Positions 13,674 to 18,079 of a DNA stretch of 26,124 nt are shown here, one piece after another. Made by a program: the position numbers and the translations under genes. Positions within the stretch are counted from its first letter, which is position 1; each line of letters begins with the position of its first letter. The stretch is from a virus. The notes beneath the pieces were generated by a model. It had not been told where the DNA came from. It saw nothing but the letters and a program-made list of their open reading frames with translations, and did no database searches. The stretch spans positions 1 through 26,124 of the IMG/VR virus record IMGVR_UViG_3300018041_000054. One strand, 5' to 3'.

Positions 13674-13793
13674 ATGGGCAAATTAAGACAATGGTTTAGA
13701 CGTTGGTTTGACAAACAAATAGAACTAAGTTTTCAACGTCAAGCAAACAAATTATTTTTAAAAGGTCAAAAGACAAAGAATGCTAAAAATTAA
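13674..13793 (+). CDS. Small basic 39-residue ORF between gp47 and ppa
   Basis: The ATG lies two bases after the gp47 stop, and the reading frame (MGKLRQWFRRWFDKQIELSF then QRQANKLFLKGQKTKNAKN) ends inside the start of the pyrophosphatase gene, overlapping it by 14 bases. The protein is short, strongly basic, and has an amphipathic Trp/Phe/Arg-rich N-terminal half. There is no known motif. It is supported by tight packing on both sides and by the fact that it fills the only gap in this operon. The last residues (AKN and stop) are encoded by the repeat that also forms the ppa and gp46 starts. It could be a real small protein or a coupling leader; I do not recognise a family. Confidence 0.55.
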   Translation: MGKLRQWFRRWFDKQIELSFQRQANKLFLKGQKTKNAKN

Positions 13794-13806
13794 AAACATA
13801 TCAGCA
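13780..13806 (+). repeat. Direct repeat copy 1 at the start of ppa
   Basis: ATGCTAAAAATTAAAAAC (13780-13797) is identical to 14291-14308, and the next nine bases match in seven (ATATCAGCA against GTTTCAGCA). Both copies hold the stop of the upstream frame (AAAAAT TAA) and the start of the downstream one. Confidence 0.9.
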
Positions 13807-14304
13807 GGTAACTTACCAGATGAAGTAAATGTTATCATTGAGATACCAGCAAATTCATCTCCTGTAAAGTATGAGATAGATAAAGAGTCTGGTGCAATGT
13901 TTGTAGATAGATTTTTATCGTCTCCTATGTTTTATCCTTGTAACTATGGATTTGTACCAGATACATTAGCAGAAGACGGTGACCCTACTGATGTATTAGT
14001 TATAACACCGCATCCACTAATACCTCATAGTGTTATTACTGTTAGGCCCGTTGGTGTATTATTAATGACAGACGAAGCAGGAAAAGACTCTAAAATATTA
14101 GCAGTTCCTACAGATAATTTATCAGAGGCGTACAGACATATTAGATGCATTGATGATGTAGAAACAACACTTAAGAATCAAATTGAGCATTTCTTTAAGT
14201 ATTACAAAGATCTAGACGATGGCAAGTGGGTGACTATTGAAGGATGGGGCGATGCCGAAGAAGCCAAGCAAGAGTTATTAAAGGATAGACATGCTAAAAA
14301 TTAA
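13780..14304 (+). CDS. ppa: Inorganic pyrophosphatase, family I, complete
   Basis: The 174 residues align over their whole length with E. coli Ppa (176 residues): IIEIPANSSPVKYEIDKESG (19-38), then FVDRFLSSPMFYPCNYGFVP (41-60), EDGDPTDVLV (65-74) and RPVGVLLMTDEAGKDSK (89-105). Active-site residues are present: E21, K30, E32, R44, Y52, Y56, D66, D68, D71, D98, D103, K105, Y142 and K143. One signature position differs: T70 where bacterial enzymes have Val, Leu or Ile. The enzyme splits pyrophosphate released by polymerases and so pulls DNA and RNA synthesis forward. It is not a T4 core gene. It stands between gp47 and gp46, overlaps the frames on both sides by 14 bases, and its first codons (MLKIKN.SA) copy those of gp46. 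A host-derived auxiliary gene is my inference; function is firm. Confidence 0.95.
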   Translation: MLKIKNISAGNLPDEVNVIIEIPANSSPVKYEIDKESGAMFVDRFLSSPMFYPCNYGFVPDTLAEDGDPTDVLVITPHPLIPHSVITVRPVGVLLMTDEAGKDSKILAVPTDNLSEAYRHIRCIDDVETTLKNQIEHFFKYYKDLDDGKWVTIEGWGDAEEAKQELLKDRHAKN

Positions 14305-14317: not shown

Positions 14318-16060
14318 AAAAACTTTATGAGTGTTGGCAACAACACACAGGCAGTTAATTTTGACAACTGCCAACTTACACTTGTATTAGGACATAACTT
14401 AGACATGGGTGGAGACGGTAGCAGAAACGGTACTGGTAAAACTACTATAATAAATGCATTAAGTTATGCACTTTATGGGGAAGCATTAACAAACATCAGA
14501 CGTGATAACCTTATAAACAAAACAAACGGTAAAGGAATGATTACTACTGTTGAATTTGAGATTCAAGATAAAAAGTACAGAATAGAAAGAGGAAGAAGAC
14601 CTAATATTTTAAAACTGTTTATAGACGGAGAGGATGTTTTAGATAATGAACAACAAGGTGATAGTAGAGAAACACAAAAAGAAATTGAAAAGATAATTGG
14701 TTTCCCTCATAATATGTTTAAGCATTTAATTGCTCTCAACACATACACAGAACCTTTCCTAAGTATGAAAGCCAATGACCAACGTGATATGATTGAACAG
14801 TTATTAGGTATAACTGAGCTTTCTAAAAAAGCAGAAGTTCTTAAAGAAAGACAAAAAGTTACTCGTGAAAGTATCAAAGAAGAAGAAATCAGAATAAATG
14901 CTGTGGAAGAAAGTAATAAAAGAATTGAAAAAAATATTAATGAGATAGAAAGTCGCAGTAGAGCCTGGGAAAAAAATAAGGATGACAAATTAATAGAGTT
15001 AGGCGAAAAAATTATTCGCATGGAACGAATAGATATTGATGCCGAATTAGAAAATCATAAATTGTTATCTACTATAAAAGAAAAAATTAATCAAAAAACT
15101 ACATTAGAAGCAGATCAGAAAAGACTGACTAATAGTGCTGATCGCAGTAAAAATAAACTGGAAGAACTTAAAAGTAATTTAACAAGAGCCAAAGAGGGTG
15201 TATGTCCTGCATGTGGGCAAGATACAGCACATTTAGAAACACATGAGGAATATACCGAAGAATTACAGGAAAAAATCACAGCAGAAAAAGAATACTATGA
15301 TGATTTAGAATTACAACTATTAAAAACATGTGGAGCAATAGATGAAATAGGTGATATTCCTGAAGCATCGGATGTATATTATAATACATTGGAAGAAGCA
15401 TTAGAACATAAACATAATCTTGTCACGATGCAGTCAAATTTAGAAACAATGGCATTAGATGTAAATCCGTACATAGAACAAATAGAAGGACTAAAAACAA
15501 CTGGTATACAAGAAATAAGTTTTGAAACAATGAATGAACTTACTCATTTACAGGAACATCAAGAGTTTTTATATAAGTTATTAACAAGTAAAGATAGTTT
15601 TATTAGAAAGAAAATAATAGATCAAAATATAGCATACTTAAATCACAGATTGGCACACTATTTGGATAAACTAGGACTTCCACATGATGTTAAATTTGCT
15701 AGTGATTTAGGTGTAGAAATTACAGAATATGGCAGGGACTTAGACTTTGATAATTTGAGCAGAGGTGAACGTAATAGACTTATACTTGGATTAAGTTGGG
15801 CATTCAGAGATATGTATGAAAGTTTAAATAGGCCTATGAATTTAATGTGTATTGACGAACTTATAGATTCAGGTATGGATACTATGGGTGTAGAAAATGC
15901 ACTTGGCATACTTAAAAAGATGCACAGGGAACAAGGCAAAAACATCATGCTCATTTCTCACAAAGAAGAACTAGTCGGACGTGTAAATAATGTTTTAACA
16001 GTCGTTAAAGAAGGCGGCTTTACAGCATATAACACGGACACTGAGTATCTTGATGGCTAA
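14291..16060 (+). CDS. 46: Recombination nuclease subunit gp46 (Rad50/SbcC-type ATPase)
   Basis: A 589-residue SMC-type ATPase, close to T4 gp46 (560). It begins with FMSVGNNTQAVNF, as in T4 'IMSVGQNG'. The Walker A loop is GSRNGTGKTT, a zinc hook CPAC (C305, C308) lies between two charged coiled-coil arms, the signature is NLSRGERNRL, Walker B is LMCIDELIDSG, and the His switch is MLISHKEEL. With gp47 it forms the end-resecting complex. A Shine-Dalgarno AAAGGA lies a few bases before the ATG, within the end of ppa. The loop between the N-terminal strand and Walker A (GHNLDMGGDG) is a little longer than in T4. Confidence 0.93.
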   Translation: MLKIKNVSAKNFMSVGNNTQAVNFDNCQLTLVLGHNLDMGGDGSRNGTGKTTIINALSYALYGEALTNIRRDNLINKTNGKGMITTVEFEIQDKKYRIERGRRPNILKLFIDGEDVLDNEQQGDSRETQKEIEKIIGFPHNMFKHLIALNTYTEPFLSMKANDQRDMIEQLLGITELSKKAEVLKERQKVTRESIKEEEIRINAVEESNKRIEKNINEIESRSRAWEKNKDDKLIELGEKIIRMERIDIDAELENHKLLSTIKEKINQKTTLEADQKRLTNSADRSKNKLEELKSNLTRAKEGVCPACGQDTAHLETHEEYTEELQEKITAEKEYYDDLELQLLKTCGAIDEIGDIPEASDVYYNTLEEALEHKHNLVTMQSNLETMALDVNPYIEQIEGLKTTGIQEISFETMNELTHLQEHQEFLYKLLTSKDSFIRKKIIDQNIAYLNHRLAHYLDKLGLPHDVKFASDLGVEITEYGRDLDFDNLSRGERNRLILGLSWAFRDMYESLNRPMNLMCIDELIDSGMDTMGVENALGILKKMHREQGKNIMLISHKEELVGRVNNVLTVVKEGGFTAYNTDTEYLDG

Positions 16061-16478
16061 TTGGCTTTACAAAAACAAAACAGTAACAACATTACCAGAC
16101 GATTGTGAGGCATTTGTATATCTAATAACGAATAACACAAATGGAAAAATGTATGTTGGTAAAAAATTAGCCAAATTCAAAACAACCAAACCTCCCTTAA
16201 AAGGTAAAAAGAACAAACGTCGTGGCACCAAAGAAAGCGATTGGCAAACTTATTGGGGTAGTAACGATCATCTCAAAGAAGACGTTGAATCATTGGGAGA
16301 AGATAAATTTACACGAGAAATTTTGTACTTTTGTTCCAGTCGAGGCATTGCAAGTTATTTAGAAGCAAAGGAACAATTTGACAGAAAAGTATTACTCACA
16401 GACGATTATTATAATGGAATTATCAATGTCAGAGTGGGCGGTTCAAAAATCCTCAAGGAAGAGCTCAAAGACATATAA
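16053..16478 (+). CDS. GIY-YIG-type endonuclease (SegE-like)
   Basis: The N-terminal part holds the GIY-YIG core in variant form: FVYLITNNTNGKMYVGKKLA, where VYL and YVG take the places of GIY and YIG. It is followed by a basic stretch (TKPPLKGKKNKRRGTKESDW), QTYWGSND, FTREILYFCSSRG and the E of SYLEAKEQF. This matches the SegE-like group common in marine T4-like phages, which may act as homing nucleases or in DNA metabolism. The frame can also be opened at a TTG at 16050, but the ATG at 16053 is the better start; it overlaps the gp46 stop by eight bases. It is the last rightward gene before the gene-free convergent gap, so any homing activity would have acted near here. Confidence 0.8.
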   Translation: MANWLYKNKTVTTLPDDCEAFVYLITNNTNGKMYVGKKLAKFKTTKPPLKGKKNKRRGTKESDWQTYWGSNDHLKEDVESLGEDKFTREILYFCSSRGIASYLEAKEQFDRKVLLTDDYYNGIINVRVGGSKILKEELKDI

Positions 16479-16889
16479 GTAGGTGTGTTAAAACGAAAGT
16501 TAAAACACAATTCACTAAGGCATACAAAGGCACAAACATAGGACTATACACCGGCCCCAACAGAGGCAAATTAAATCTGGCTCCTTGACAATCCGGCAAT
16601 GGCAACACCCGGTGCGAGATACTGGAGATGTATAGCGGCAAAGTACAAACACACGACAGACAGTATAAAAGGATGTAAGCTCTGAGAAAAAGCAACTTAC
16701 AAGTTATATAACTAAACTTACCTAGGTTATATGATTTCCGTGAGATTCGTGACGGTAGTGTATGGGGACAGAAGGCTCACTGGTTCCTAGTAGCACCCGA
16801 GGTTAAGATGGCGACGGCATCACATGATGACTTCATTCTCACCTGTATAGGTGAGTTATGGCTTCAACATACATGATAACGGTCTACTT
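16479..16889. other. Gene-free convergent gap with GC-rich, foldable segment
   Basis: No convincing gene is visible. Two parts are about half G+C (31 of 60 bases at 16561-16620 and 32 of 60 at 16741-16800), far above the flanking genes. On the plus strand, CTATACA (16544-16550) pairs with TGTATAG (16629-16635). That helix encloses CTCC/GGAG (16581-16584, 16624-16627) and CCGG/CCGG (16593-16596, 16609-16612). Further on, CTAGG (16722-16726) pairs with CCTAG (16786-16790) around CCGTGAG (16738-16744) and CTCACTGG (16776-16783). CTCACCT-GTAT-AGGTGAG (16838-16855) is a perfect hairpin. An open but startless frame of about 55 codons covers 16717-16880. A structured RNA, in either direction, or a decayed gene is possible; I cannot decide. 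Confidence 0.4.
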
Positions 16890-16917
16890 AAAAAATTCTT
16901 TCAAACAAATGAAAGAA
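16890..16917 (-). terminator. Rho-independent terminator of the leftward gp26 unit
   Basis: Read leftward, TTCTTTCA (16917-16910) pairs with TGAAAGAA (16903-16896) around a 6-base loop, followed directly by six T (16895-16890). The stem is AT-rich like the genome. It lies about 70 bases past the stop of the 65-residue gene and would stop leftward transcripts before they run into the gp46 block. Confidence 0.7.
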
Positions 16918-16951
16918 CGAAGTTTACGAAGTGATTGAATGTAGTTTGAAA

Positions 16952-16966
16952 AGGTCCGTAGGACCT
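16952..16966. other. Short hairpin AGGTCC-GTA-GGACCT
   Basis: A perfect 6-bp stem with a three-base loop, 17 bases past the end of the leftward gene. Read leftward it is followed by TTTC only, so it may be a weak first terminator or an RNA-protecting end before the stronger terminator at 16890-16917. Confidence 0.4.
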
Positions 16967-16982
16967 ATATAGAGTTTAAAGA

Positions 16983-17180
16983 TTAAAGTTGTTCTGTTGG
17001 AGATTTGCCTGCTTTTGCTTGATTATAATCATTTATAGTTTTAACTAATGAAGCTCTTTGTTTTGATGACATTTCCCATGCTTCAGACCAGGTGACAGAT
17101 CCATTACTATACACAACTAGTTCAGTTATGTTTTTCTCTATGGCGTCTGTTTCTTCGTTGAGCTTCCTAAGGTATGCCAC
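16983..17180 (-). CDS. Small protein downstream of gp26, function unknown
   Basis: A 65-residue protein (MAYLRKLNEETDAIEKNITE, then WSEAWEMSSKQRASLVKTIN and a basic tail) predicted mostly helical. It starts with GTG, only two bases after a very strong Shine-Dalgarno AGGAGG (17188-17183), a tight spacing that may limit its rate. It lies 23 bases after the gp26 stop and ends its transcription unit. In T4, genes 26 and 51 (hub assembly) are neighbours, so a hub-assembly role is possible by position, but I see no sequence proof; it is far shorter than T4 gp51 (249). Confidence 0.65.
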   Translation of the reverse strand: MAYLRKLNEETDAIEKNITELVVYSNGSVTWSEAWEMSSKQRASLVKTINDYNQAKAGKSPTEQL

Positions 17181-17203
17181 TACCTCCTCAGGCTCTGATT
17201 GAG

Positions 17204-18079
17204 CTAGGAAGCCGTGAAAAAATTTACGGGATTAAAGTTTACCTGTGCTTGGAACTCATATGGTTCTTCTTCAGTACCACATGCAGTACATCTCATGAGT
17301 ACTTCTTTGTTTACACCTATATTAGAAATCTCTGAGATAAATTCTTCTATCTGTTTTCCAACAGCACTTTCACAGTTTTCTAAAAATTCGCGAATATTAT
17401 TTGAGTCATTAACGATTATGTCATCGCTGTCTTTATCAACGGCAGGAATTGTGATAGAAGCCACACTATCCACCATTATATCAAAATTTAATTGAGAAAG
17501 TTCTATAAAATTACTATTAAATGCACGAATTCTTTCCACTTCATCATCTATGGTAGCAATTGATTGTAAACTTCTTTCACTTCTAAAGTTTGCTACTCCG
17601 GCCTTTACTGTAGTTTCATAACTAAAAGGTCTAATTTCTACTAGTAGACCTGTATCAGTATTAAATTGATATGCATCATCTAATGTACTCATAGTGGATA
17701 AAGCACCCTCTACACTGACGTTTTCAGTGACAACTTCTTCACATTTATCACAAGTGCTGGATACCTCCATATCATCACCATAAGTAGCACCCTGAATAGC
17801 AATTAGTAATGCATCTATGTCATTACTTAAAAGTTTTCTTGGTAATTTGATTGTTGGTATACAACTGCTAATTACTGTGGCAATTGCTTCACCGTTTAAT
17901 AATGCATCTGGATTTTTTAGCATTAGTTCATCCTTAGCAGTCATGGGATATACTGGTAATTCTCCAGTTTCCGACATGTCTACTACATCCGGGGTATAAA
18001 ATTTACCTTTACTGGGTAATTGTGTATATAACTTTGGCGACCTAAAATGTCCTGCTAGTGGATTGGTATTATCTGCCAT
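17204..18079 (-). CDS. 26: Baseplate hub protein gp26-like (T4 baseplate family)
   Basis: The 291-residue protein has the hallmarks of the T4 gp26 family: an N-terminal SPKLYTQLPSKGKFYTP, then YPMTAKDELMLKNPDALLNG (43-62) with VISSCIPTIK, and paired cysteines CDKC (about 110-113) and CTAC (about 268-271) that could bind a zinc ion. The family takes part in hub assembly at the centre of the baseplate. T4 gp26 has 208 residues; the added length lies between the two Cys pairs. The start has a good ribosome binding site (AGGAG, 18091-18087), and a GATAAATA late promoter is at 18144-18137. It diverges from the tape-measure candidate. Confidence 0.8.
   Translation of the reverse strand: MADNTNPLAGHFRSPKLYTQLPSKGKFYTPDVVDMSETGELPVYPMTAKDELMLKNPDALLNGEAIATVISSCIPTIKLPRKLLSNDIDALLIAIQGATYGDDMEVSSTCDKCEEVVTENVSVEGALSTMSTLDDAYQFNTDTGLLVEIRPFSYETTVKAGVANFRSERSLQSIATIDDEVERIRAFNSNFIELSQLNFDIMVDSVASITIPAVDKDSDDIIVNDSNNIREFLENCESAVGKQIEEFISEISNIGVNKEVLMRCTACGTEEEPYEFQAQVNFNPVNFFTAS

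Follow-up and report, generated by a model that had tools for sequence, protein, structure and literature searches.

A pseudoknotted structured RNA in T4-superfamily phages and its inferred homologues in jumbo phages

Introduction

What occupies the gene-free, G+C-rich gap that follows a GIY-YIG nuclease gene in a marine phage whose genes are only about one third G+C? The stretch analysed here, hereafter the window, comprises the 26,124 nucleotides of IMG/VR record IMGVR_UViG_3300018041_000054, and represents part of the genome of a marine T4-superfamily phage. The genes run in the order late sigma factor, SbcD, pyrophosphatase, SbcC and SegE-type GIY-YIG nuclease, followed by the gap, a gp26-like baseplate gene on the opposite strand and a portal gene, whose product is nearest to those of jumbo phages of the PA5oct, Atu_ph07 and 121Q kind. 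G+C content reaches 43.7% at 16501-16800, versus about 30-37% in the surroundings.

A preliminary description, made without database searches, had proposed a structured RNA at 16541-16861, in a gene-free segment lying after the GIY-YIG gene and between converging units, with two 60-base lines of about 52-53% G+C. All of this held: the lines at 16561 and 16741 contain 31/60 and 32/60 G+C by hand count, neither an ORF longer than 80 aa nor a gene family match was found in the segment, and the flanking ORFs are complete and convergent. The conserved region reaches further in both the 5′ and 3′ directions, spanning 16515-16885 and possibly extending to 16966.

Results

The segment is under selection for RNA structure

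Relatives were fetched from viral contigs through similarity to the GIY-YIG gene, and the region downstream of that gene proved to be 71-92% identical in more than 20 related phage contigs. We aligned the window RNA and its relatives (alignment A1, 23 sequences), for which the RNAalifold consensus showed double changes in 38 of 82 pairs. The final structure, written by hand with a pseudoknot included, comprises 83 base pairs, 41 of which carry compensatory double changes. Under this structure 98.2% of cells are paired, compared with less than 44% when the partners are slid, and double-change cells number 193 versus 54±6 in shuffles and 7-27 in slid controls. Moreover, indels break any frame in the A1 relatives: within the RNA body, 229 of the 279 gap runs have lengths that three does not divide, and no reading frame stays open throughout. 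Collectively, the paired cells, the double changes and the frame-breaking gaps show that the segment is under selection for RNA structure. The single-sequence folding energy of the region is ordinary (z of -1.0, -0.55 and 0.0), so that energy alone would not have supported a structured RNA; the evidence is comparative. One coding candidate, a short ORF whose ATG at 16858 follows a Shine-Dalgarno-like AGGWGA, was considered and rejected, as its frame shifts between relatives.

The preliminary description had named three findings that would count against an RNA, namely a lack of covariation among homologues, a conserved protein frame across the region and a match to a decayed known gene, and each outcome favoured RNA. 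Its statement that tRNA, tmRNA, RNase P RNA and group I cores could not be matched also held. Rfam 15 covariance models gave no match in the window, and none even at an E value of 10 for 16400-17000, while the relatives L246, L139 and L288 returned chance-level matches only. Neither ARAGORN nor the Rfam tmRNA model detected a tRNA or tmRNA, and no homology to GOLLD or ROOL was found by sequence or covariance model. The interpretation as a structured RNA is thus supported by a conserved fold that lacks an Rfam, tRNA or tmRNA match. Likenesses to the 23S rRNA GTPase centre, SRP RNA, RNase P RNA and 5S rRNA, noted by eye, were dropped because the pairing pattern differs and Rfam returned nothing.

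A decayed intron or decayed gene would be an alternative source of such a segment, and in its favour the neighbouring gene bears the name of a homing-type nuclease family. Against it, no group I or group II catalytic core was matched in Rfam at E values up to 10, flanking exons are absent, the pairs are under strong present-day purifying selection and no frame is conserved. We therefore regard this explanation as all but excluded. The earlier suggestion that the place suits mobile introns was likewise not supported, since the RNA is intergenic and convergent to the gp26-like gene, has its own promoter-like and terminator-like signals in other phages and survives without the GIY-YIG gene.

The RNA is built around an H-type pseudoknot

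The features of the window RNA and the jumbo-phage copies described below are listed in Table 1. In 29 leaders of close relatives the GGCA motif occurs 70 times, against 4.6 expected from shuffles. In the P1 domain, CTATACA (16544-16550) pairs with TGTATAG (16629-16635) and encloses two hairpins, and compensatory changes were found in the P1 helix and in the inner hairpins. The long-range pairing that closes the central domain is conserved and shows little covariation. Within that domain, the P6 loop, CTCTGAGAAAAAGCAA (RNA: CUCUGAGAAAAAGCAA), is nearly invariant.

The core consists of helix X (16740-16744/16776-16780, GTGAG/CTCAC), which crosses helix Y (16764-16769/16783-16788, GGGGAC/GTTCCT) to form an H-type pseudoknot. 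Both helices are doubly changed in three separate alignments, A1 and the A4 and A5 alignments introduced below. Of the helices predicted from sequence alone, CTATACA/TGTATAG closing 16544-16635 and the perfect hairpin at 16838-16855 held and covary in A1, and CCGTGAG/CTCAC held as part of the pseudoknot; an outer helix CTAGG/CCTAG (16722-16726/16786-16790) failed, as it is not conserved in A1.

An ATGGC...CATGATRAC stretch occurs as two imperfect copies, one on either side of the 3′ hairpin (16808-16883), and distant relatives carry this duplication too. Further downstream lie two conserved hairpins, TTTCAAAC/GTTTGAAA and AGGTCC/GGACCT; in relatives, the first has T runs behind it when read on the minus strand. 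These hairpins may complete the RNA at its 3′ end or, alternatively, terminate the convergent gp26-like message.

Table 1 Features of the window RNA and multicopy counterparts in three jumbo phages
Feature	Position or locus	Strand	Basis or remark
GIY-YIG nuclease gene	16050..16478	+	Pfam SegE_GIY-YIG; directly 5′ of the RNA
5′ leader with repeated GGCA motifs	16520..16540	+	GGCA count in relatives' leaders
5′ domain P1	16544..16635	+	RNAalifold and pair counts
Central multibranch domain	16636..16799	+	Closed by CGG 16636-16638 / CCG 16797-16799
Hairpin P6, GTAAG/CTTAC	16675..16700	+	Double changes in 4/5 pairs (A1)
Long hairpin P7	16701..16737	+	Double changes in 9/13 pairs (A1)
Pseudoknot core	16738..16788	+	Double changes in X and Y
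Helix P9, GTGT 16758-16761 / GCAC 16793-16796	16758..16796	+	Surrounds Y; A1 pair counts
3′ hairpin, TCTCACC...GGTGAG	16836..16857	+	Double changes in 4/8 pairs (A1)
Two conserved 3′ hairpins	16899..16966		Double changes in 11/14 pairs (A1)
121Q copies	L388, L391, L394, L397	same strand	~450-nt ncRNA
GAP32 copies	L389, L392, L395, L399, L401	same strand	~450-nt ncRNA
XaC1 copies	L390, L393, L396, L398, L400	same strand	~450-nt ncRNA

Several observations concern the neighbouring genes in their own right. The pyrophosphatase between SbcD and SbcC (13780-14304) matches Pfam PF00719 with an E value of 3e-55, and the GIY-YIG gene belongs to PHROG 447, whose label, NAD synthetase, is likely a misnomer. 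Within 16983-17250 on the minus strand, the gp26-like gene stops just past a TTTTTTC that is conserved, as is a second ORF in the -1 frame, open from 13-25 nt ahead of the stop (from further ahead in L095). This ORF is kept in almost every relative inspected, among them marine phages, PA5oct, GAP32 and 121Q (loci L085, L088, L092, L095, L096, L100, L103, L242, L246 and L249), and by analogy with tail assembly chaperones the gene end might be a -1 programmed frameshift.

The RNA is widespread and separable from its nuclease neighbour

Two DNA patterns that do not depend on the GIY-YIG gene, one derived from the invariant P6 loop and the other from the pseudoknot, were used to find further members. 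Each recovered at least 120 stretches in viral contigs. The pseudoknot pattern added many members with the loop GUGAAAAAGAUACAACC, which are likely of freshwater origin, an inference drawn from the look of their sources. Alignment A4 was built from these putatively freshwater members found with the pseudoknot pattern; the hairpin and the two pseudoknot helices are paired in 97.7% of its cells, with 53 double-change cells versus 12.5±2.9 in shuffles. A covariance model of the core, R1, matched 80 times in 86 chosen loci. No homologue was returned when the window region was compared with isolate phages by blastn. A search for paralogues in marine and freshwater contigs of 180-350 kb yielded only one confident copy per contig. 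One contig that also carries the new RNA contains a freshwater-2 RNA (Rfam RF02980; L229, 11068-11144).

The immediate upstream gene was a GIY-YIG nuclease in 46 of 57 and 47 of 77 GIY-independent loci, in most loci on the same strand and often 50-140 nt away; in 12 of the 77 it was a PDDEXK nuclease. In jumbo phages, the upstream gene encodes endonuclease VII, RusA or a Holliday junction resolvase that has RNase HI close by. The RNA also occurs without a GIY-YIG gene and next to unrelated genes, it is divergent from GIY-YIG in six loci (L119, L158, L183, L202, L213 and L214), and in G021 the two are about 120 kb apart. Conversely, GIY-YIG genes occur without the RNA; in Methylophilales phage Melnitz the gene is present and no RNA was detectable beside it. 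A strict module of GIY-YIG and RNA, entertained as a candidate, is weakened by the RNAs without GIY-YIG, the divergent pairs and the separation. Because the RNA can be divergent, distant or unaccompanied by GIY-YIG, it is neither an intron remnant nor a mere 3′ UTR. The resolvases that fill the equivalent slot in jumbo relatives suggest that the SegE-type gene may encode a structure-specific, resolvase-like nuclease rather than a homing enzyme, although this is inferred.

Two rival explanations bear directly on this linkage. In the first, the RNA acts in cis as an element at the 3′ end of the nuclease operon mRNA, where it protects the SbcC/GIY-YIG message or sets its level. The frequent position immediately downstream of GIY-YIG on the same strand speaks for it, as does the window itself, in which no promoter or terminator was predicted on the plus strand for the RNA, so that the RNA there may belong to an mRNA 3′ region. 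Against it stand the divergent loci, the distance in G021 and the unrelated neighbours, which include those of several jumbo-phage copies; the RNA does not always lie 3′ of one gene on one strand, as such an element should. We consider this explanation unlikely.

In the second, the RNA guides a GIY-YIG nuclease, much as omega-RNA guides IscB or TnpB, a view for which the tight physical linkage and the precedent of nuclease-linked structured RNAs could be cited. However, the nuclease type varies (GIY-YIG, PDDEXK, endonuclease VII, RusA or none) while the RNA locus stays, so that the constant partner nuclease of an omega-RNA-like class is absent; RNA and GIY-YIG are each found without the other; the 142-aa protein of the window has a nuclease domain only; and no guide-like variable segment was identified. 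This explanation is very unlikely.

Jumbo phages carry an inferred homologue, in several copies in some genomes

In 121Q, GAP32, CBB, XaC1, PA5oct and Phosso, a gap of ~650-1000 nt, unannotated or sparsely annotated, lies at the syntenic place beside the gp26-like gene. The 121Q gap contains a TATAAT with a TG extension upstream of the RNA and a terminator-like hairpin with a T run downstream of it, ~450 nt apart, and a consensus TTGACA-17-TATAAT lies upstream of the syntenic gap in PA5oct. Matches to the 121Q gap sequence came from 40 phage records, as a rule several in each genome. The copies are dispersed and lie on the same strand, with four in 121Q, five in GAP32 and five in XaC1; PA5oct, with the RNA place at 75.8-76.8 kb, has a single full place plus two partial ones. 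The remaining GAP32 and 121Q copies also lie in ORF-free gaps between annotated genes, and some records leave jumbo-phage copies without annotation or place small, probably spurious ORFs over them.

Twelve of the 121Q, GAP32 and XaC1 copies were aligned (A5). The pseudoknot is 100% paired, with 7 of 10 pairs doubly changed, and in the rest of the RNA 46 of 71 pairs are doubly changed. Helix X varies as GUUGC/GCAAC, GUCAU/AUGAC, GUUAC/GUAAC and GUUGU/ACAAC, and helix Y as GAGAG/CUUUC, GGAAG/CUUCC and ACUGG/CCAGU. Marine and 121Q RNAs have in common the motif CCG-X5′...Y5′-(AAACAG, UACAG or UACCG)-X3′-(C)CGC-Y3′, and the defining trait, crossing X and Y helices, an ACAG/ACCG-type linker and CGC between X3′ and Y3′, is met in A1, A4 and A5. 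The marine-core model R1 gave no match to the jumbo RNAs and does not cross this distance; the homology of marine and 121Q RNAs is thus inferred from the common pseudoknot motif together with synteny. Comparison shows that the RNA is present in hundreds of T4-like and giant phages, with the T4-like-to-jumbo link resting on that inference.

The multiple copies raise the further possibility of a replication-origin transcript, acting as an R-loop or primer, with dispersed copies marking several origins; phage T4 uses several replication origins. In support, the RNA has recombination genes around it (SbcC/D, resolvase-type nucleases and, in Phosso, RNase HI), iteron-like GGCA repeats precede it, the GAP32 copies are 64-84 kb apart, and G-over-C skew in 121Q rises modestly after 4/4 copies (0.036-0.09; permutation p of 0.077 for the mean and 0.006 for the minimum). 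Against it, RNA pairs are under strong selection along the whole length, a terminator-like signal lies immediately 3′ of the RNA in 121Q, the marine and freshwater contigs have a single confident copy, the skew sign is unchanged at 3/4 121Q copies, and GGCA repeats were not seen in the 121Q leader. We judge an origin transcript, one of the two main rivals together with the cis element, to be unlikely.

Discussion

Comparison establishes a non-coding RNA with a pseudoknot core that is widely distributed, separable from its neighbours and present as paralogues in some genomes. What it does is inferred. The reading we prefer, with a modest margin of confidence, is a stand-alone, trans-acting structured ncRNA gene of T4-superfamily and jumbo phages. 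The RNA would be a stable transcript in its own right or, at loci without a visible promoter, a processing product of the SbcC/GIY-YIG operon transcript, and would fold into a compact pseudoknotted particle of ~350-450 bases. It may then act in trans and in high amounts, binding a protein partner, not known at present, in early or middle infection, with the GGCA-repeat leader as a putative unpaired docking stretch. That it acts in trans is an inference solely from how the genes are arranged, without transcript data; the four to five dispersed, same-strand copies in 121Q, GAP32 and XaC1 suggest a need for dosage, again by inference.

Among known systems, GOLLD and ROOL are large, ornate phage-associated RNAs with Rfam families (PMC2864571, PMC12286853), and the new RNA resembles them as a highly structured phage ncRNA of unknown function; it is smaller, belongs to other hosts, lies beside recombination nucleases and is multicopy in some phages. 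HEARO, the omega-RNA of IscB, is likewise structured and encoded beside a nuclease gene, whereas here GIY-YIG, PDDEXK, endonuclease VII or RusA stands in place of IscB, the linkage is not strict and no Rfam match exists. T4-like group I introns offer a further likeness, a pseudoknotted RNA near a SegE-type GIY-YIG gene, yet the new RNA has no core match, no exons and, in several phages, its own promoter and terminator signals. Other phage-encoded noncoding RNAs include the stable RNAs C and D of phage T4, which are short and lie within the tRNA cluster, and ncRNAs reportedly detected in PA5oct by RNA-seq. No description of the RNA was found in the open-access literature searched; we regard the family as categorically new, with the reservation that subscription papers, including the PA5oct transcriptome, were outside that search.

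A bolder reading, which we find rather less convincing than the preferred one and would not yet expect to be right, is that one ancient pseudoknotted RNA of 350-450 nt, if not longer, belongs to the core of the T4-like/jumbo superfamily. Some members would make it in bulk from several copies, and large phage genomes would need it in trans for their takeover, replication or recombination. Present annotation displays the copies as empty gaps or spurious hypothetical proteins. Since carriers include the culturable E. coli phages 121Q, PBECO4 and slurp01, as well as Salmonella phages and other relatives, direct laboratory tests are feasible. That the RNA is kept across diverse, abundant phages, in four to five copies in certain giant phages of the E. 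coli type despite the pressure for coding density, implies an important role.
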